A DNA stretch of 64,000 bases from Verrucomicrobiaceae bacterium. GTDB lineage: Bacteria; Verrucomicrobiota; Verrucomicrobiia; Verrucomicrobiales; Verrucomicrobiaceae. Below, in pieces: positions 286 to 29,669 of this stretch. The notes below the pieces were generated by a model, which saw only the letters and a program-made list of their open reading frames with translations, did not search any database and was not told the origin of the DNA. The position numbers were made by a program, and so were the translations under genes. How positions within the stretch are numbered: position 1 is the stretch's first letter; every line of letters begins with the position of its first letter. The DNA lies in assembly GCA_016795365.1 (NCBI GenBank), contig JAEUHN010000040.1, positions 62,001-126,000 of the forward strand. Direction: 5' to 3'.

Positions 286-3200
286 TCAGCGTGCGTCGAG
301 CTTCACGTAGTCGATGCCGACCATGTAGCTCTTCACCGCCTGCGGGTTGGTGCCCTTGATCGTGAAGGTGAGCTTGTGCTCGCCGACGTTGAGGTCGTGG
401 GTGCCGAGGTCGAGTTCGTCGGTGACGATGACGGCAGGGTAGTTGTAGCCGTCGAAGTCGGTGAGCACAACCTTGCCATCGAGCGCGATGTCACAGATGC
501 CGTAGTCGCGCGCTTTGGTGAGCAACGTCTTCACGGCGAACTTGCCGGCTTTCGCCACGGGCAGCGCGAGTGTGAGCGTGTTGCTGGGCTTCGCGCCGGT
601 CCACCAGAGCTGCGAGCCGCTGCTCCACTTGTTGCCGAAGCCGCCCATGCCTTGCGGACGGGTGCTGCCACCGGTCTTGGACAAGACCGTCATCGTCTCG
701 GCTTCGATCGCGCCTTCGACTTTGATCGCAGGACCACTTCGACCGGTGTCAGCCTTCGCGGGCGTGGCGTTGGTTTGCAGGTAAGCCACGAGCTGGCGGA
801 GCTGCTCCACGGGCAAGGCATCGAACAAGCCCTCGGGCATCGTGCTCACCTTCGACACGGTGCGCTTCTTGATCTCGCTCGTCGTGATCGTCTGCTCCAG
901 ACCACCGGGCATCGCGATGCGCACCGCGCTGGGCGAGTCCTCCTTCACCACGCCGCTGGCCACGCGTCCGTCCTTCAGCTCGAAGATGTTGAGCTGGTAG
1001 TCCTTGCCGATCACGGCGTTGGGATCGAGCACGTTGTCGAGCAAGTAATCGAGGTTACCGCGATTCGAGCCGGTGAGATCGGGGCCGACCTTCTGCCCTT
1101 CGCCAAACATCGCGTGGCACTGGCCGCACACGGCACTGAACAAGACTTTTCCTTTGGCTTTGTCGGCGGCAGCGAGATCGCCCTTCGTGAGCAACGCGCG
1201 GAACTTCTTCTTCCGCTCTTCCAGATCGGCTTTCGGTGCGTTGAGATCGCCGAAGGTGTCCTTCAGCAAGGCGGCCACGTCGGCGTTGTTCAAGGTCGCG
1301 AGCTGTCGCGCGAGGAAAGGCGAGAGCATCGTGCTTGGGATCGTCTTCGCCTTCACGGCGGTGAGCAGCGCCTTCGCACCCGAGGCGGTGGTGGCGAGGG
1401 TGTTGACGGCGTCTTGTTGTTCGATGACATTCATGTTGCCGAAGGTCATCACTAGCCATTTGGCATTGTCCGGGTGCTGGAGAACCGCAAGGCTCTGGAT
1501 AGCGGCCCGCTTGAGAGGTGAACCTGGGCCGGTGCCAGCGAGGATGTCGTGAAGGCCGAATTCCATCATCGTCGGGGTGCTGAACTTGGTCTGGGTGACC
1601 ACTCGAATGGCATTCAGAGCGAGAGGAACGTCGGCACGTTGATGGACGATGATGTCAGCGAAGTGCTGTAGCGTTGCCGTATCGCCCATGAAGGCTTCGA
1701 GTTCGAGTAAAGTCGCTTCGACTTGAGTCGAAGGTTCTTTGGATTCGGCTAAAGCCGAAACCACTTTGGTGCGCAGCGCTGCCCAGTTCTCCGGCTTGCT
1801 GATCTTGTTCCCGGCGCGGGCAGACTTCAGCACGGTCTCGAGCAAGGCATCGCGCATGGCCGCGTCCTTGGTCTCAGCGGCCACCGTGAGCAACCCGGTG
1901 CGTCCCGATTCCTCGGCACCCATGCGACGGTAGATGAACTCGGTGACCTTCGGCATCTTCGACACCTTCGCTAGTTCGAGTCCCGCCTTCGGGTCCGCGC
2001 CGACCAGTGGCTCGATGCCATACCAGATCAGCAACGGGATGTAGGGATCGTCTTTGTCCTCGCCGTGGGCGAGAAGGGCGCGAGCGATGGGGGTGCGCTG
2101 GTCGTTGGGGAGACGCTGGAGCGCGGAGGCCAGTTCGCGGCGGACGATGGGGGAAGGATCGCTCTTCGCCACTTCTGCCATCGCTTTCAATTCACTAGCA
2201 TCAAGGTCGGCGACAACTGCCGTCACGCCTTGGCCAGGTTTCAAAGGGTTTCCCGGGTTGTCGCCAAGAAACACTTCAAACGGCAGTGACAACTGCCGAA
2301 CAGCAGCCACGCGCACTCGTTCGTCCGCATCTTTTAGTTGCTTCCCAACAAGATCGGACGTCCTCGCCACACCGAGTGAGTAGGCGAGCCACATCTTTCT
2401 CAGGCTGGAAGAACCCGACGACAACTCGGCGAGGTCAAAAAGCTTGTTGTTGAGTGCTGTGCCGCGCACAACCCGTTCCATCAATACCCTCCGCGCCTGC
2501 CTTGAGAACCACTCGTTCTCCGTCTGCACGGCGAGCTTGGCGAGGGTCTCGTCGCTTTCCTTGGCGAGATCGAACGGGGCTTTCGGGAAAGGAGCGCGGG
2601 CGCTCTTGCCCGCTTCATTGTTCTTCGCGGCTTCGCCGCCATTTGTTTGAGTGCGGACAGGAGTGTCCGCGCTCCTTTCCACGCCTTCGCTGCCGACGTA
2701 GCTCACCTTGTAGATGCGTCCGTTGCTGCGATCCCAGATCTCCACCGCACCGCTGCCGCGATGGCACACCTGCTTGTCGCTCCAGTCACTGACATACAAG
2801 GAGCCATCGGGACCGACCTTCTGCGTGACAGGAATAAAATTCATGTCGTTGCTGCGCATGAAGTCGCTGCCGTGCTTGCCGATGTAGGTGCTGCCGTGCG
2901 GGTCGAGGTAATCGGTCACGAGGCGGTGGCCGTGCAGGTTGCCGAAGATGAGCCGGTTCCGATAGGTGGCCGGGAACTGGTTGCTCTGATAAATCGCGAG
3001 GCCGCAGTGCGCGTGGCCGCCGCCAGCGGCGTTGGTGTCGTCTTGCACGAGGCTGCCGTGATCGCGACCGCCCCAGTGTGCGTTGTCGCGGATGTTCCCG
3101 GCGTAGTGCGCGTGATCGGCGATGGTTTCGATATCCTCGTAAGTGTAGGGATTGAAGTGCTGCCCGCCCTGCCGGTGATAGCGAGCGCCAGGGACGATGT

Positions 3201-5283
3201 GATACAGATGCGGGATGACGCAGGCGGTGACGAAGAACTCGCCGTTCTGATCATAATCGAGGCCCCAGGGATTCGATGTGCCGTGCGCAAAGACTTCAAA
3301 CACATGCCGCACGGGATGATAGCGCCACACACCCGCATTCATGAGCGTGCGCTGCTCGTCGGGCGTGCCAGGCTTGCCGATCTTGGAATGCGTGAAGACG
3401 CCGTGGCAGCCGTAGAGCCAGCCATCGGGTCCCCAGAGGAAGGAGTTCAGCGTCTCGTGCGTGTCCTGCGTGCCGAAGCCGTCGAGGAGGGCGTAGGCGG
3501 TGAAGCTGAGGCCGGGGACTTTGGTCAAGGCAGTCAAGTTGGTCAAGATTGGGGTCAAGTCTTGCTTCGAGGCACCCTTGACCTCTTGACCCTTTGACTC
3601 CTTGACCAAGCCTACCGGCTTGTCCCCATCTCTCGGAATGAACATCAAATACGGAGCCGCGCCGATCCACACACCGCCGAAGCCAACCTCGATGCCACTC
3701 GCGAGATTGAGGCCTTCGCAGAAGGTCTTCTTTGTCTCGTAGGTGCCGTCGCCGTCGCTGTCTTCGAGGATGCGGATGCGATCCTTTCCGGCGCCGACTT
3801 CGCGGGGCTGCGGGTAGCTGTTGCCCTCGACAACCCAGAGGCGACCACGCTCGTCGAAGCAGAAGGCAATCGGTTGCACGATGTCGGGCTCGGCGGCGAT
3901 GAGGTCGGCTTTGAAGCCGGTGGGGAGTTGCAGGTTCTTCAGCGCGTCTTGCGGCGGCTGGCCGCGGGCATATTCGATCTGCGGCTTCAAGCCGGGGCCA
4001 TACATCTTCACGGGCTTCGCCTCGGCGGTCGAGTCGGTGCGCTTTTGCGTGAGGATGAAGACGCCGCTTTTGTTCGCGGAGACGATGTCGGGCAGGCCAT
4101 CACCGTTCACATCGCCCACGGTGACATCGACGCCGACGCTGCTGACGGTATCGACGAGGTGCGGGATGAAATCGACGCCGCCCTTGCCATCGCGCTTCGT
4201 CTCATACCAATAGACCACACGCGCACCGCGCTCGTCGGGATCGTGGCCGTTGTGCGCCCAGTAGCGTTTGCCGGTGACGATGTCCTGGATGCCGTCGCCA
4301 TTGATGTCTGCAAGTGCTGCAGCATGAGGCTGGGAGAAGACGATGCCGTAGTCGTTGTCGGCGGGGTTCTCGCTGGCGAGCATGACTTGCTTCCAGTTGG
4401 GCAGAGGAGCGCGGGCACTCTTGCCCGCATCGTCATGCTTCGCGGCTTCGCCGCCAGGATCAGAAGAGCGGACAGGAGTGTCCGCGCTCCCTTGTGGCTT
4501 GTTCTGCAAATACACCGCCACACCATAGCGATGTGCCTGCAGACTCGTGAAGACATCGTTGGTGCCGTTGCCGTCGAAATCATACGCGAACATCTGTGCG
4601 CCACCGCCGACACCGGCGGCGAAGTTGTGCTGCTCCCAGAGGCCGCTGTCCTTGTGCTCCCACCAGCGACGTGCTTCGAGGAGGTCGAGTTTCCCATCGC
4701 CATTCACATCGCCGACACCGAGGCCGTGCGTGAACTTCGCCACCTTCATGTCCTCACTGACGGCTACGAACGGCCACTTCTCGGTCGGCTTGTCCCAGTT
4801 CGGTGCGAACCAGCCGAACTTGCCGCCCGTGCTGCACACGATCTCCGGTTTGCCATCGCCGGTGATGTCGGTGAAGACGGGCGACTCGTTGTCCACCACG
4901 TCGGCGACGATGCTCATCGGCCACGGCTTGTCGTCGTGAACGCCGGAGTTCAGGTAGAGCCGCGCTTCTTTGCCAGGGAAGCCAAGGATGAGGATGTCGT
5001 TCTTCTTGTCGCCGTTGAAGTCATGGACGTAGGCGAAGAAGTTGTCCGAGTAGCCATTGATGCTGAAGATCTTCGGCTCGTAGTAGGCGTGCTTCTTTTC
5101 AAAGGCGGGGCCTTCCCACCAGAATGGACCCGCCACGATGTCGGGCTTGCCGTCGCCATTGATGTCGCCAATCGCCGCGCCCTCGGAGTAAAAGTCGCCG
5201 TGGAGCTGCTTGCGTTCCCAGGTGATCTGGGTGGCCGCGTGCAGCGAGGTGGCCGCGAAGACTAGAGCGAGGAGAACTTTCAT
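286..5283 (-). CDS. Giant secreted PVC-type cytochrome c dehydrogenase with FG-GAP, HEAT and C-terminal carbohydrate-binding-like region
   Basis: 1665 residues from the ATG at 5283, which gives a clean signal peptide (MKVLLALVFAATSLHAA); a TTG five codons upstream is less likely. Order of parts: signal peptide; FG-GAP/VCBS propeller with many DINGDGKPD-type calcium loops (about 20-440); PVC-type beta-propeller dehydrogenase (about 450-850, with FDERGRLWVVE and DSDGDGTYE); HEAT-like helices (about 900-1330); one c-type heme site CGQCH near residue 1385 with GPDLTGS after it; and a C-terminal beta domain beginning IEAETM, resembling a carbohydrate-binding module. Such proteins are exported in Planctomycetes and Verrucomicrobia. 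Oxidation of a sugar or polysaccharide is inferred and the substrate is unknown. The frame is interrupted by several translated palindromic repeats, described separately at 1709, 2209, 2588, 3521 and 4403. There is no operon partner. Confidence 0.88.
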   Translation of the reverse strand: MKVLLALVFAATSLHAATQITWERKQLHGDFYSEGAAIGDINGDGKPDIVAGPFWWEGPAFEKKHAYYEPKIFSINGYSDNFFAYVHDFNGDKKNDILILGFPGKEARLYLNSGVHDDKPWPMSIVADVVDNESPVFTDITGDGKPEIVCSTGGKFGWFAPNWDKPTEKWPFVAVSEDMKVAKFTHGLGVGDVNGDGKLDLLEARRWWEHKDSGLWEQHNFAAGVGGGAQMFAYDFDGNGTNDVFTSLQAHRYGVAVYLQNKPQGSADTPVRSSDPGGEAAKHDDAGKSARAPLPNWKQVMLASENPADNDYGIVFSQPHAAALADINGDGIQDIVTGKRYWAHNGHDPDERGARVVYWYETKRDGKGGVDFIPHLVDTVSSVGVDVTVGDVNGDGLPDIVSANKSGVFILTQKRTDSTAEAKPVKMYGPGLKPQIEYARGQPPQDALKNLQLPTGFKADLIAAEPDIVQPIAFCFDERGRLWVVEGNSYPQPREVGAGKDRIRILEDSDGDGTYETKKTFCEGLNLASGIEVGFGGVWIGAAPYLMFIPRDGDKPVGLVKESKGQEVKGASKQDLTPILTNLTALTKVPGLSFTAYALLDGFGTQDTHETLNSFLWGPDGWLYGCHGVFTHSKIGKPGTPDEQRTLMNAGVWRYHPVRHVFEVFAHGTSNPWGLDYDQNGEFFVTACVIPHLYHIVPGARYHRQGGQHFNPYTYEDIETIADHAHYAGNIRDNAHWGGRDHGSLVQDDTNAAGGGHAHCGLAIYQSNQFPATYRNRLIFGNLHGHRLVTDYLDPHGSTYIGKHGSDFMRSNDMNFIPVTQKVGPDGSLYVSDWSDKQVCHRGSGAVEIWDRSNGRIYKVSYVGSEGVERSADTPVRTQTNGGEAAKNNEAGKSARAPFPKAPFDLAKESDETLAKLAVQTENEWFSRQARRVLMERVVRGTALNNKLFDLAELSSGSSSLRKMWLAYSLGVARTSDLVGKQLKDADERVRVAAVRQLSLPFEVFLGDNPGNPLKPGQGVTAVVADLDASELKAMAEVAKSDPSPIVRRELASALQRLPNDQRTPIARALLAHGEDKDDPYIPLLIWYGIEPLVGADPKAGLELAKVSKMPKVTEFIYRRMGAEESGRTGLLTVAAETKDAAMRDALLETVLKSARAGNKISKPENWAALRTKVVSALAESKEPSTQVEATLLELEAFMGDTATLQHFADIIVHQRADVPLALNAIRVVTQTKFSTPTMMEFGLHDILAGTGPGSPLKRAAIQSLAVLQHPDNAKWLVMTFGNMNVIEQQDAVNTLATTASGAKALLTAVKAKTIPSTMLSPFLARQLATLNNADVAALLKDTFGDLNAPKADLEERKKKFRALLTKGDLAAADKAKGKVLFSAVCGQCHAMFGEGQKVGPDLTGSNRGNLDYLLDNVLDPNAVIGKDYQLNIFELKDGRVASGVVKEDSPSAVRIAMPGGLEQTITTSEIKKRTVSKVSTMPEGLFDALPVEQLRQLVAYLQTNATPAKADTGRSGPAIKVEGAIEAETMTVLSKTGGSTRPQGMGGFGNKWSSGSQLWWTGAKPSNTLTLALPVAKAGKFAVKTLLTKARDYGICDIALDGKVVLTDFDGYNYPAVIVTDELDLGTHDLNVGEHKLTFTIKGTNPQAVKSYMVGIDYVKLDAR
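1709..1767. repeat. 59-bp intragenic palindromic element, family 2 (copy 1)
   Basis: Two adjacent hairpins lie within matching outer ends: CTTCGACT/AGTCGAAG (1716-1733) and TTCGGCT/AGCCGAA (1744-1759), bounded by AAAGT and ACTTT. Read in the host frame it encodes KVVSALAESKEPSTQVEATL. A second copy of exactly the same length lies at 27914-27972; by hand alignment about 46 of 59 bases agree. Confidence 0.8.
2209..2298. repeat. Candidate intragenic palindromic insertion, single copy
   Basis: An 8-bp perfect inverted repeat GGCGACAA/TTGTCGCC (2209-2216 and 2258-2265), a 7-bp hairpin CGGCAGT/ACTGCCG (2281-2298) and an 11-bp direct repeat GACAACTGCCG (2212 and 2288) fall together in the HEAT region. 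The encoded stretch (VFLGDNPGNPLKPGQG) looks unlike neighbouring HEAT helices. Only one copy is seen, so calling it an insertion is an inference. Confidence 0.45.
2588..2678. repeat. 91-bp three-hairpin palindromic element, family 1 (copy A)
   Basis: Outer 26-bp arms (2588-2613 and 2653-2678) are inverted copies agreeing at 22 of 26 bases. Each arm folds on itself (for example GCGGACA/TGTCCGC) and a GCGGC-TTC-GCCGC hairpin sits exactly at the centre (2627-2639). It is translated in the host gene with the peptides SADTPVR, GGEAAK and AGKSARAP. Copies B (4403-4493) and C (27515-27606) share length and architecture. Confidence 0.9.
3521..3609. repeat. 89-bp intragenic palindrome built of GGTCAAG units, family 3
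   Basis: On the + strand four (G)GTCAAG-type units (3523, 3532, 3541, 3553) face four CTTGACC-type units (3577, 3585, 3593, 3601). The ends are a perfect 10-bp inverted repeat TTGGTCAAGG/CCTTGACCAA. It is read through in frame inside the propeller dehydrogenase domain, giving a Lys/Leu/Thr-rich linker. Confidence 0.8.
4403..4493. repeat. 91-bp three-hairpin palindromic element, family 1 (copy B)
   Basis: Same length and symmetry as copy A, with arms 4403-4428 and 4468-4493 and the central GCGGC-TTC-GCCGC hairpin at 4442-4454. It has the same orientation and the same encoded peptide pattern (SADTPVR, GGEAAK, AGKSARAP). It lies in the FG-GAP propeller region, about residues 263-293. Confidence 0.9.
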
Positions 5284-5436
5284 GGTGGTGGGATGCAAAC
5301 GCTATCAGACGTGGGCAGCATCAGACAAGATTTGTGTCTAATCTGACAGCAGCCTTCGTGGGGCAGGACTAGCGATGTTATGCCCACAAATAATGCACTA
5401 CCAAGCGAGGCAAGTTACGCCACCGGATGTCATCTG

Positions 5437-25008: not shown

Positions 25009-28000
25009 CTACCCTTTTAGCGTCATCAGGTAGCTGATTAGATCCGTCGCCTGCTGATCGTTCAAGCCATCGATCAATCCCTCGGGCATCAGTGAGCGAC
25101 GGATGTAGCGCGTGCTGCGCACATCCTTCTTCGCGATGCGGCGATCCTGCACGCCGGGCTGGCGCACGACGAAGGCTTCCTTGTCTTCGCTGACGAAGAG
25201 CGCGTCCACGATGTCGCCCGACTTCAGTTCCACGCGGAAGATGCGATAGCCGGATTCCATCGCCGCGTTTGGCGTGAGGATGTTGCGCAGCACGCCTTCA
25301 AGTCCCATCGCCCCGGCGCCACTGAGGTTCGGACCGATCTGGCCGCCTTCGGGTCCGATCATGTGGCAGGCCTTGCAGATCATCGAGAGCGCCTTGCCTT
25401 GAGCGAGGCTGCCTTTCTTCAAGTCGAGCGTGCTGAGATGCGCGAACTTCTTGTCGAGCGCATCAGCTTGCTCAGCAGTGAGCAGCGGCGGCGTGTCGAT
25501 GGCCTTCGCGAGACGAGCACCCGTCCGACGAGGCTGTGGCTGGACCTTGGAGGGGACAAAGGTGCCTTGTCTTGGCTCAGAATCACTCATGACAATATCT
25601 CCGATCACTTTAATCCACGTTTCTCGCTCGAGCTTGCTGCCGGCATTGAGCACGCGGTCAAAGTTTTGCCGAATCTCCTGAGCCGTGCGCTCCTTCTTCC
25701 AGATGCGGAATTCCGTCATCACGCCTTCCGTGCCTTTCTTCGGACCGCTCCAACCAATGCGGCAGTTCTCCCACTTGTCCGGCGCGGGCACTTTCGACAC
25801 GGCATCGAGTTCGCCGTTCTGGTAGATCTTGATGAAGCCTTTCTCGTCGCGCGTCACAGCGATGTGTGTCCACAAGTCCGGTGTCATCGGCTTCTTCGCC
25901 ACCGCCACGTCATGCAGTTTGGGTCCGGCGAACACGCGGAACGTCGAGCCAAAGAAGTTCATCTCCACACCACCGGGCACGCCGAGGATGTCGTCCTCGT
26001 TGCCGATGCCGGGCGCGAGCTTGATCCAGGTCTCGACGGTGAAGGTGCCATCCAATGTGATCTTCGAATCAATCCACGCCTCCTCGCTGCCATCAAAGGC
26101 GAGCACATCGTGGAAGACGTGGCCGAGGCTGGCCATGAGCTTGTTCAGCTCCGCATCGTTGCCGAGCACGAGCGACAAACGCTCGGCTGTCGGCCCATCG
26201 AGATCGGTCTTCGGAATCTTGTTCGACGCGAGCGCAGCGACGATGGCCTTCGCGCCGGGCTTCGATGCGGAGAGCGCATTCAAAGCCGCATGTTGCTGTG
26301 CGCTGCTAAGCGTTGGATAAAGTGCGAAAAGCTGCTCGGCGGCGCTCGGATTCTTCGAGACGGCGAGAGCTGCGAGGGCTTCGTCGCGGATTGTCGGCCC
26401 AAATGTCGAGAGACTCACAAACAGCTCTGCCGCAGTGGAGCGAAGCTCTTTGAGAGCTTGAAGAAGCGAAACCATGGTTGCTTGCGAAAGCCGGTCATCA
26501 GGCGTGAATTCAACGCGGCGCGTTGCACGATCCCATAACTTTTCTTTAAGCTGAGTCAGCGCTGTGACGAGATCGCTCTCCAACGACGCCAACTGAAACC
26601 CGCCGATCAAACTCACGCTCAGCGCGCGCTCGTCATCCTTGCCACTGAGCAATGCCTTCGCCGCCTCGCTGAGCAAGGGCGCGATCTTCGTGGGATCTAG
26701 CTTGGTCTTCTGCGCGAGCAGCTTCTCCGCCACCGACGTGCGCGACTTGGGATTCGACAGCAACGCCTTCAAGGCATCGCCGCAACCCGCCTCCTCCGGG
26801 AACTGCGCGAGGCGCAGGAGTTCTTCATCGTTCGGTGCGCGATCCAACTGCGGCAGCAGCTTCGCCACGCGCGATGCACTCGCTTTCGGTTCCAGCGCGA
26901 GCGACGCGAGCACACGTGCTTCGACGGGAAGCTTCGCGGCCTCATCGGTGTCGAGGAACTTCACGACCACATCAGGATGCCGTTCCAGGAACATGCGCAC
27001 GAGGAAGCGCTCGAACTCACGATCATAGGCTTCGCCAACGGGGATGGGCTTGCCGGTGCGACCGGGGGCGGTGGGCTGTGTTAGGGAGGGTTTGGCGAAA
27101 GAGAGAAGTGACGACAGAACGCCCAAATGATCTGCTCGCTTGTCTTGAAGATATTTTGCAAGTCTCTGGATAGCAGCTTGCCGGACCTCTGGCGCTTCAC
27201 TAGTGGGCACTTCGCCAAAATCAGCCTCAAACTCAAAAGTCGAATCGGGAGTATCCGCAATCACCGTTCGCAGTAGCGGCGGTGAAGCAGACTTCTCAGG
27301 TGACGAAACAGAATTAGGTGCGGTCCAGTGAGCTTGGACACGTTTGGATACACTCTGGTTTCCATCATTTACCAGCTTCCAAAGACGCTCGCTTCCTTCG
27401 ATGTCACCTCGATCTGCCAACGTCTGCCACGCCAGATGCGCCCGCGCCGTTGGCTTCGTCCCGAGCAACGCGATCAACTCCTCCGTGCTCAGCTTCGTGA
27501 AGTCGGGGATCGTCATAGGAGCGCGGACACTCCTGTCCGCTTCTTTAGAATCAGGCGGCGAAGCCGCGTTGCTGTTCGATGCGGACAGGAGTGTCCGCGC
27601 TCCTTTCGCGTCGTCGCTTGCCTTCGGCTTCACGCGCCAGATGCGACCGCGAATCTTGTCACGATCTGGATGATTCCGCGGCACCTCGTTGTGACTGATG
27701 ATCTTGTTATACCAGTCCACGATGTAGAGGCAGCCATCGGGACCTTGCGTCATGGCGACGGGACGGAAGAACGGATCGTCGCAGGTCACGAGGTCGGCGG
27801 CTTGCTCGTAGCGCCAGCCGTTCGGGGCGCGCTGCGGATCTTTGCGACTGTCTTCGCGATGCATCGCGAGCGTTTGCACCTTCGAGATGATCGGGTTGGC
27901 GACGAACATGCACAACGTGGGTTCGGCTTTAGTCGAATCTTTCTGACCTTCGGCTGAAGCCGAAGCCACTTTCTTCAACTCCCCCTCGCCGAGCGCGAGT

Positions 28001-29595
28001 CCGCTCAGTCCCGTGCCACCCATCTTGAAGTCGGGTGTCTGCACCGGGAACTCCGGCTGGTAGCTCTTCCGCAACGCCTCCATGCCTCCCGGATAATACG
28101 CATACTCGTGGAAGGGCATGACCGGGTAGCCGTAGTCGTTCGCTTCCTGGATGAAGGCCTCGCCTTCGCCCGTGATCACGAGGCCCCAGATGTTGTTCGG
28201 GCCGAGGCTGGTGACTTCGAACTCACTGCCATCCGGCCTCATGCGCGCCATGCTGCACTTCGGGTAGTCGATGACATTCGCGTCCTCGCCGGGCTTGTGA
28301 ACCTTGCTGTTGTTGAACAGGCCCTGCGCCATCCAGATCCAGCCGCCGGGCGCACGCGTGAACTGATGCGGAAACAAATGCGAGTCCTGCACGCCGAAGC
28401 CGGTGAGGATCACCTTTGATTCGTCGGCCTTGCCATCGCTGTTCGTGTCCTTCATCAACAGGACGTCGTGACCGTGCAGCACGTAAGCGCTGTCGCCATT
28501 GCCCCACGGCAGCAGGCCGAGCGGAATGGCGAGACCATCGGCGAAGACAATCGGATTGGTGAGTCCGCCCGCGGGAAGCGTCGTATTCAACGCCTCGCGC
28601 GGATAGACCAGCACCTTGTCCTTGCCCTTCGCGGCATACACCGCCTCAGCAGCGGCGGGGTTCTCATTGCCATCGACAGGATACTCCAGCGCGGTCTGCG
28701 TCCACAGACGGCCGCGCTGATCGAAATACACGCTGACGAACTTGCCGATGCCGGGCGATTCCTTCACCACGAGTTCAATCTCGTAGCCCTCGGGCAGGTG
28801 GAACTTCTTGATCTGTTCTTCAGCGGTCAAAGGCGTGCCCTGGACGTTGTTGTAGCTGATGTCGCGCTTCGCTGGCTTGCCTGCATCGGCTTGCGTCTTC
28901 TTCGGCGGAGCGACCTTGGCACGCGCGGCATCAATGCCACCGAGCGATTGCCAGGTTGGTGCGTTCGGCGTGGCGGGCAGTTCTTCGATGGTCACGTCTT
29001 TGACCTGCACGAGACAAACCCCGCCGCTGTGAACCTGCGGTCCGATCAGACCATCGAGCGCGACGTTCTTGTCCTCCTCGACGTAATCCATGCACAGCAC
29101 GCCATTGATCCAGGTTTGAATGCGCGGCCCTTCTGCACGGATGCGATACTCGTTCCAGCCGAAGACATCGATCACTTTGTCGAGCGCGGTCTGCTGCTCA
29201 GGCGTGGGAGCCCAGATCACCTTGTTGCGACGGAACTCATCATAAATCTTCCCGAACCAACCCGCGCCACAGTCCACCTGATAGCCGCACATGTGGGCTG
29301 TGCCCGGCACACGCAGACTGCGGATTTGAATGCCGCTGTTCAACATTCCCGTCTTCGGATCGCCGCTGACCTTGATCTTGAGCTTCAGCTCGAAGTTCTG
29401 GTAGCTCTTCTTGGTGCAGATGAAGTAGTTCTCTTTGATCTTCTCCGTCGTGGAGCCGCCGGTGATCATGCCGTCTTCGACACGCCAGATCGCGGGATCG
29501 AAGTCCCAGCCGTCGAGCGACTTGCCGTCAAACAGAGAGACCGGCTGCGCGAAGGCAGCCGTCGAGAGCAGGAGAAGAGCGAGGAGTGAACGCAT
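25009..29595 (-). CDS. Giant secreted PVC-type cytochrome c dehydrogenase with N-terminal DUF1080 and LamG-like domains
   Basis: 1528 residues from ATG 29595, which gives a clean signal peptide (MRSLLALLLLSTAAFAQ). Order of parts: DUF1080/3-keto-disaccharide hydrolase domain (about 20-215, starting SLFDGKSLDGWDF); PVC-type propeller dehydrogenase (about 255-700); HEAT helices (about 720-1125); a LamG/concanavalin A-like domain (about 1140-1320, with TFTVETWIKL); and one cytochrome c site CKACH near residue 1405 followed by GPNLSGAG. DUF1080 relatives bind or cleave glycans, and at least some act on 3-keto-sugars, so oxidation and cleavage of a polysaccharide is a reasonable inference. Two palindromic repeats (27515 and 27914) are translated within it. 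An AraC regulator gene lies 74 bp upstream on the same strand. Confidence 0.88.
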   Translation of the reverse strand: MRSLLALLLLSTAAFAQPVSLFDGKSLDGWDFDPAIWRVEDGMITGGSTTEKIKENYFICTKKSYQNFELKLKIKVSGDPKTGMLNSGIQIRSLRVPGTAHMCGYQVDCGAGWFGKIYDEFRRNKVIWAPTPEQQTALDKVIDVFGWNEYRIRAEGPRIQTWINGVLCMDYVEEDKNVALDGLIGPQVHSGGVCLVQVKDVTIEELPATPNAPTWQSLGGIDAARAKVAPPKKTQADAGKPAKRDISYNNVQGTPLTAEEQIKKFHLPEGYEIELVVKESPGIGKFVSVYFDQRGRLWTQTALEYPVDGNENPAAAEAVYAAKGKDKVLVYPREALNTTLPAGGLTNPIVFADGLAIPLGLLPWGNGDSAYVLHGHDVLLMKDTNSDGKADESKVILTGFGVQDSHLFPHQFTRAPGGWIWMAQGLFNNSKVHKPGEDANVIDYPKCSMARMRPDGSEFEVTSLGPNNIWGLVITGEGEAFIQEANDYGYPVMPFHEYAYYPGGMEALRKSYQPEFPVQTPDFKMGGTGLSGLALGEGELKKVASASAEGQKDSTKAEPTLCMFVANPIISKVQTLAMHREDSRKDPQRAPNGWRYEQAADLVTCDDPFFRPVAMTQGPDGCLYIVDWYNKIISHNEVPRNHPDRDKIRGRIWRVKPKASDDAKGARTLLSASNSNAASPPDSKEADRSVRAPMTIPDFTKLSTEELIALLGTKPTARAHLAWQTLADRGDIEGSERLWKLVNDGNQSVSKRVQAHWTAPNSVSSPEKSASPPLLRTVIADTPDSTFEFEADFGEVPTSEAPEVRQAAIQRLAKYLQDKRADHLGVLSSLLSFAKPSLTQPTAPGRTGKPIPVGEAYDREFERFLVRMFLERHPDVVVKFLDTDEAAKLPVEARVLASLALEPKASASRVAKLLPQLDRAPNDEELLRLAQFPEEAGCGDALKALLSNPKSRTSVAEKLLAQKTKLDPTKIAPLLSEAAKALLSGKDDERALSVSLIGGFQLASLESDLVTALTQLKEKLWDRATRRVEFTPDDRLSQATMVSLLQALKELRSTAAELFVSLSTFGPTIRDEALAALAVSKNPSAAEQLFALYPTLSSAQQHAALNALSASKPGAKAIVAALASNKIPKTDLDGPTAERLSLVLGNDAELNKLMASLGHVFHDVLAFDGSEEAWIDSKITLDGTFTVETWIKLAPGIGNEDDILGVPGGVEMNFFGSTFRVFAGPKLHDVAVAKKPMTPDLWTHIAVTRDEKGFIKIYQNGELDAVSKVPAPDKWENCRIGWSGPKKGTEGVMTEFRIWKKERTAQEIRQNFDRVLNAGSKLERETWIKVIGDIVMSDSEPRQGTFVPSKVQPQPRRTGARLAKAIDTPPLLTAEQADALDKKFAHLSTLDLKKGSLAQGKALSMICKACHMIGPEGGQIGPNLSGAGAMGLEGVLRNILTPNAAMESGYRIFRVELKSGDIVDALFVSEDKEAFVVRQPGVQDRRIAKKDVRSTRYIRRSLMPEGLIDGLNDQQATDLISYLMTLKG
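27515..27606. repeat. 92-bp three-hairpin palindromic element, family 1 (copy C, inverted)
   Basis: Arms 27515-27540 and 27581-27606 match those of copies A and B. The central hairpin is GCGGC-GAA-GCCGC (27555-27567), the reverse complement of the centre in A and B. Relative to its host gene the element is therefore inverted. It is still open and encodes a different peptide (GARTLLSA, NAASPP, ADRSVRAP). Confidence 0.9.
27914..27972. repeat. 59-bp intragenic palindromic element, family 2 (copy 2)
   Basis: The same 59-bp architecture as 1709-1767, with hairpins TTCGGCT/AGTCGAA and TTCGGCT/AGCCGAA and ends resembling AAAGTGG/CCACTTT. In the host frame it encodes KVASASAEGQKDSTKAEPTL, closely matching the peptide of copy 1. 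Confidence 0.8.
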
Positions 29596-29669
29596 GATAG
29601 GCAGAAGAACGCCGCTCATTGCAGCAGGTTCGCACGATCATGTCCACATGGAGGTGACTGAAACGCACC

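Follow-up and report, generated by a model that had tools for sequence, protein, structure and literature searches.

Two palindromes in the window, a 64,000-nucleotide stretch from the genome of a Prosthecobacter-like bacterium, are members of a REPIN-like family. The members of this family share one structure and are dispersed over the genome; copies within genes are read in frame, orthologous sites in related genomes are empty, a RAYT gene is linked to the same repeats, and linkers of one host protein have been used repeatedly. We estimate at about 90% the probability that these palindromes represent a mobile family that is moved by a RAYT and whose genic copies survive in frame in tolerant linkers.

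Both palindromes lie in the open reading frame at 286-5298 on the minus strand, which encodes a 1670-aa protein with FG-GAP repeats, a DUF7133 domain and cytochrome c. The first-pass annotation of this DNA had described two 91-bp palindromes of equal length, at 2588-2678 (copy A) and 4403-4493 (copy B), each composed of three hairpins and read in frame. Coordinates, equal length and frame were confirmed, and both copies are GGAG-tagged REPINs on the minus strand; their strictly shared part is 85 bp long (GGAG...CTCC; 2591-2675 in copy A and 4406-4490 in copy B), and a third copy, a REPIN of 86 bp at 27518-27603 on the minus strand, had been overlooked. The shared unit consists of a REP, in full GGAG-C-GCGGACA-CTCY-TGTCCGC (the tag, a C, the 7-bp stem GCGGACA and the loop CTCY), a variable spacer that holds a central GGCGGCgaaGCCGC hairpin, and a second REP in inverted orientation. 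Each arm forms a short hairpin on its own, as had been noted, but the best fold of the full unit is a single long hairpin whose tip is formed by the central one. The fold z-scores of copies A and B were -8.7 and -7.2 (0 of 200 dinucleotide shuffles were as stable), and the REP core was found 6 times in the window compared with 0.00 expected by chance. Copy A encodes ERSADTPVRTQTNGGEAAKNNEAGKSARAP (host residues ~873-905) directly past the DUF7133 domain, and copy B encodes QGSADTPVRSSDPGGEAAKHDDAGKSARAP (~269-300) between FG-GAP repeats. The third copy (fold z -11.1) is also in frame, in a second DUF7133/cytochrome c gene (ORF 25009-29637, minus strand), and is read in a phase other than that of A and B, giving the peptide GARTLLSA...RSVRAP.

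The two window genes contain additional palindromes, all on the minus strand. An inverted repeat of the GGTCAAGG type at 3523-3610 (z -6.3) occupies a third variable linker of the A/B host protein (residues ~562-592); no second copy of it was found in this genome. The same gene carries a degenerate GTGG-tagged REP doublet, GTGGTTTCGGCTTTAGCCGAA, at 1709-1763 (z -2.9), which encodes KVVSALAESKEPSTQVEAT, and the ORF at 25009-29637 carries a GTGG-tagged doublet of the GTGGTTTCGGCTTTAGCCGAA family at 27917-27969, which reads KVASASAEGQKDSTKAEPT. These two doublets are in frame and in a common phase in both genes, and this second REP family, with the canonical GTGG tag, had 10 matches in the genome. 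In an AlphaFold model of the A/B host protein, for which mean pLDDT was only moderate (66), the inserts of copy A (model residues 671-703), copy B (70-98) and the 3523-3610 palindrome (369-384) occupy low-confidence loops with pLDDT <50 between strands or domains; further low-confidence segments are present elsewhere in the model.

A search of the whole genome for the REP pattern, in line with a check proposed in the first-pass annotation, identified 73 REP matches in ~39 clusters, mostly inverted pairs, to which 34 regions read individually and the window were added for a census that strongly decayed copies escape. The reversed control pattern had 0 genome matches. That annotation had recognised a mobile palindrome and had missed the REP doublet of which it is made. 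In the regions read, the pairs fell into three size classes: 84-89 bp, in which the central hairpin is present or absent, 111-113 bp, and ~165-187 bp; 13 REPINs and one single REP were intragenic, while most of the remaining clusters were located outside genes. The genomes of relatives contained between 0 and 103 REPs. The consensus is [GC]ANN-GGAG-C-GCGGACA-CTCY-TGTCCGC, with A at -3 in 99-100% of copies, and the tag was GGAG in 133 of 150 REP copies and GTGG in 2. It is placed 1 nt from a short stem-loop with a 7-bp stem and a 4-nt loop, in which paired positions change together: among the 150 copies, pair 9/18 was A-T in 91, G-C in 52 and T-A in 2, and pair 10/17 was C-G in 139 and G-C in 6. 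This covariation suggests that the structure of the DNA itself has been constrained or inherited, and in coding copies it is visible as ADTPVR versus AGTPAR. The family has the canonical REPIN features of an inverted, hairpin-forming doublet, a compensated stem-loop 0-2 nt past the tag, dispersal and a REP-flanked RAYT, and lacks the canonical 5' tetranucleotide GTAG/GTGG.

The RAYT gene is located on contig C30 at about 2256-2915, with REPINs on either side, and a REP overlaps its final codons. It encodes a Y1/HUH transposase of 219 aa in which we read the HUH motif MPNHVHV as well as YIEDNP. The protein matched the Y1_Tnp profile with 41 bits (cut-off 23), is similar to solved Y1 transposases and to TnpArep 4er8, and scored 60.8 bits (E 1.3e-16) against NCBIfam REP_Tyr_transpos (NF047646), which is below the 80-bit equivalog cut-off. 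Of 12 RAYT relatives with 51-66% identity to the C30 protein, 10 have the same REP close to them. When the C30 gene itself was counted, the association held for 11 of 13 RAYTs with ≥51% identity (on both flanks in 8 genomes), compared with 0 of 17 for diverged RAYTs with 42-47% identity (Fisher p 1.4e-6), and none of the nine further Y1 genes in this genome adjoins a REP of the GGAG family. The median number of REPs was 14 in genomes that have a close RAYT and 4 in those that do not (own genome included), an excess with p 0.0009 when the own genome was removed; some REP-rich genomes are without a close RAYT match, e.g., G010 with 30 REPs. These data support that the GGAG REPINs are most likely copied or moved by the C30 RAYT, the activity of which we infer.

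Comparison with related genomes supports that the GGAG REPINs are mobile. The congener G001 is empty at the sites of copy B, of the copy at 27518 and of the copies at L043 and L060, with conserved flanks, and the closest relatives of the window genome have no insert at the copy B site either. Along a segment in which G003 and its congener G013 are collinear, all 11 REPINs read in G003 are absent from G013. Together with the dispersed copies and the linked RAYT, these empty sites support the earlier suggestion of an inserted mobile element. The first-pass annotation had also called for an alignment of orthologues for exact boundaries and a target duplication. In our boundary comparison of G001, G011, other orthologues and the 11 presence/absence pairs of G003 and G013, the insertion ends could not be fixed because the length difference between filled and empty sites is not constant (81, 93, 75 and 30 nt) and because the flanks are too diverged (~73-87% DNA identity). 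The 81-nt gap at copy B had been considered as 85 minus 4, in the manner of an IS200-like target overlap; this idea was dropped since the other sites give 75, 93 and 30 nt. In G003 (G003:C1, L171-L181), there are ~50 very uniform REPINs of ~159 bp, while the congener G013 has ~13 REPs; the uniformity apparently reflects a recent burst.

Based on these data, we propose that two inverted REPs would fold as one hairpin in single-stranded DNA and that the C30 RAYT-type HUH/Y1 transposase would copy or move REPINs in this single-stranded form. Insertion would not be aimed at genes, and insertions that do fall into genes would survive only if the frame is kept, no stop is introduced and the site is a loop or linker that tolerates them. 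In the phase that survives, the insert would then add a short, presumably neutral Ala/Gly/Pro/Ser/Lys-rich peptide to the protein.

Orthologues of the A/B host gene (~50, mostly from Verrucomicrobiaceae and Prosthecobacter MAGs) provided a view of what has happened at the two linkers. The first-pass annotation had reasoned that distant orthologues that all contain the segment, with a conserved protein sequence and no conserved palindrome, would speak against insertion. The opposite was observed: the protein is conserved on either side, while the insert itself is missing, decayed or a member of a different palindromic family. At site A, most orthologues lack an insert and read DGWKPWKGDL or near it, and the others contain GGAG REPINs, GTGA-tagged elements, elements of two GTAG-tagged families or at least two further palindromes, each of them in frame. 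Site B is likewise filled by several palindromic families; at least six palindromic families occupy these two linkers across the ~50 orthologues, always in frame. Among control windows of the same genes, 2 of 282 had z<-4, of which one is a site-A insert and the other is itself palindromic. By parsimony on the gene tree, the GGAG type changed at least four times at site A and at least five times at site B, counts that rest on this tree and that recombination could inflate. At site A, one of the orthologues L079 and L082 has GTPVRAPL and the other a full insert; it seems that one of the two has lost the middle of the REPIN in frame.

Instead of being inserted repeatedly, the elements at these sites could have spread among species through homologous recombination of the host gene. 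Identical GTGAT-type inserts are present in L204, L226 and L239, of which L204 and L226 are distant on the gene tree, and conservation is unequal between the two halves of the A/B host gene, which would fit recombination. However, at least six unrelated families at site A imply several insertions whatever the history of the gene, and copy B is missing from the closest relatives of the window genome; we therefore consider recombination an unlikely substitute for repeated insertion. On a broader scale, and tentatively, RAYT-driven REPINs of unrelated families may be a recurrent, family-wide source of new linker sequence in the Verrucomicrobiaceae, with the same inter-domain sites being refilled by different families, always in frame. 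If so, REPINs would take an active part in protein evolution instead of being extragenic passengers, and the length and phase of the GGAG family would suit translation.

The first-pass annotation had called the element coding-compatible and had likened it to Rickettsia palindromic elements (RPEs) in behaviour and not in sequence. The likeness in behaviour was substantiated, in that 13 REPINs are open across the element in 12 genes and encode similar peptides, and nearly all copies are flanked on either side by sequence with coding-like codon use. The term coding-compatible calls for caution: most clusters are non-genic, and the element has several open frames in any case. By Pfam, the host proteins include PSCyt1/PSCyt2/PSD1 and DUF7133 proteins, an N6_N4 methylase, an MmeI-like enzyme, Ser/Thr kinase-FGE proteins, a GH5-CBM protein and an SMEK/NB-ARC protein; L067 (173 bp, near the N-terminus) was left out of the coding count. 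A single GGAG REP is present in frame in a Cas4-Cas1 fusion gene (L053:1881-4199; G000 C23). One codon phase is common to 11 of the 13 coding REPINs (p 2e-4), and a length of 1 mod 3 was observed for 10 of 13 coding copies and for 2 of 9 non-coding copies of similar size (p 0.027), small counts in which two copy pairs share one gene or sit in paralogues. In the preferred phase, the Cys-rich frame is avoided and hydrophobicity is lower than in phase 0. Phase 0 is stop-free as often as phase 1, and stops alone do not explain the preference.

This bias, together with the repeated filling of the same linkers, is what would be expected of elements specialised for coding regions in the manner of RPEs, with a sequence shaped to be harmless in translation and with genes as a main habitat. 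We consider such specialisation quite unlikely, given that phase 0 is equally often free of stops, that purifying selection after random insertion would leave the same bias and that most clusters lie outside genes. Selection for a harmless peptide after insertion can account for the coding bias and is its simplest reading. It is still less probable that the inserts are kept as RNA hairpins, acting as mRNA stabilisers or as translation speed bumps between domains. The folds are very stable, many inserts sit at domain borders, and an RNA role of REPs has been proposed elsewhere (PMC3733652); yet the same sites are short linkers without an insert in most orthologues, a decayed insert without a strong hairpin persists at site B of L222, and no Rfam family matched. 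That the repeats are a conserved protein motif, i.e., a duplicated linker peptide with the DNA palindrome as a by-product, would fit the similar peptide and single phase of 11 of the 13 coding copies and is nevertheless highly improbable, as more than half of the clusters are non-genic, some genes translate the element in a different phase, stem bases covary, and flanks are conserved where the insert of the orthologue is absent or of another family.

REPINs or BIMEs with RAYT (TnpAREP) transposases are well described (PMC3116915, PMC8266576, PMC6006769), and the elements reported here resemble them in the inverted REP doublet hairpin, the tag 5' of a short stem-loop, the many copies and the partner Y1 transposase, whose gene has the same REPs on its flanks. 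They differ in that GGAG, at 1 nt from the stem, takes the place of GT[AG]G as the tag, that a third of the clusters is coding, and that the RAYT scores under the NCBIfam equivalog cut-off. Because the canonical REP definition requires a GT[AG]G tag (PMC3686654), to which GGAG does not conform, we treat the GGAG family as a variant that behaves as a REPIN. IS200/IS605 elements also have an HUH/Y1 transposase, and their subterminal hairpins are accompanied by a guide tetranucleotide on the 5' side (PMC6006769), whereas the elements here are short doublets without a transposase gene of their own.

In-frame translated REP dimers are a known kind, since intragenic REP dimers (PMC3733652) and RPEs (PMC10969869) have been described. 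In 2013, REP dimers encoding 20-30 aa within ORFs were reported, with the greatest abundance in the verrucomicrobium Opitutus terrae; for these intragenic GTAG/CGTC REPs, tolerance in flexible linkers or loops was proposed, and recB of two Xanthomonas species has different REPs at about one site (PMC3733652). The copies described here are likewise dimers inside ORFs, for which we also propose tolerance in linkers or loops, and differ from those of O. terrae in tag and sequence, in having a matched RAYT clade and congener empty sites, in the phase and length bias and in the reuse of linkers by several families over ~50 orthologues. RPEs are in-frame palindromes in many unrelated genes with a conserved peptide (reviewed in PMC10969869), and the GGAG family shares this in-frame insertion in many unrelated genes and a common peptide; it belongs to another phylum, and a partner RAYT was identified. 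New here are the GGAG tag, the RAYT partner, the repeated use of linkers, and the phase and length bias of coding copies. GGAG as a term was absent from the REP papers searched for it, and an earlier report is possible in the subscription literature, most of which lay outside this search.

REPs are named as extragenic, and GGAG REPINs are translated in a dozen proteins, among them a DNA methylase and a restriction enzyme of the MmeI type; the linkers of one protein have been hit repeatedly across a bacterial family. Two questions can thereby be put to the test: the range of tags that a RAYT can read, and whether mobile palindromes give rise to new protein sequence in free-living bacteria, like RPEs in Rickettsia. 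With regard to tags, inserts in L204, L226 and L239 (site B), in L233 and L234 (site A) and in L167 have the same stem on the foot AGTGAT or AGTGAA in place of GGAGC, which possibly represents a tag switch inside one stem family.
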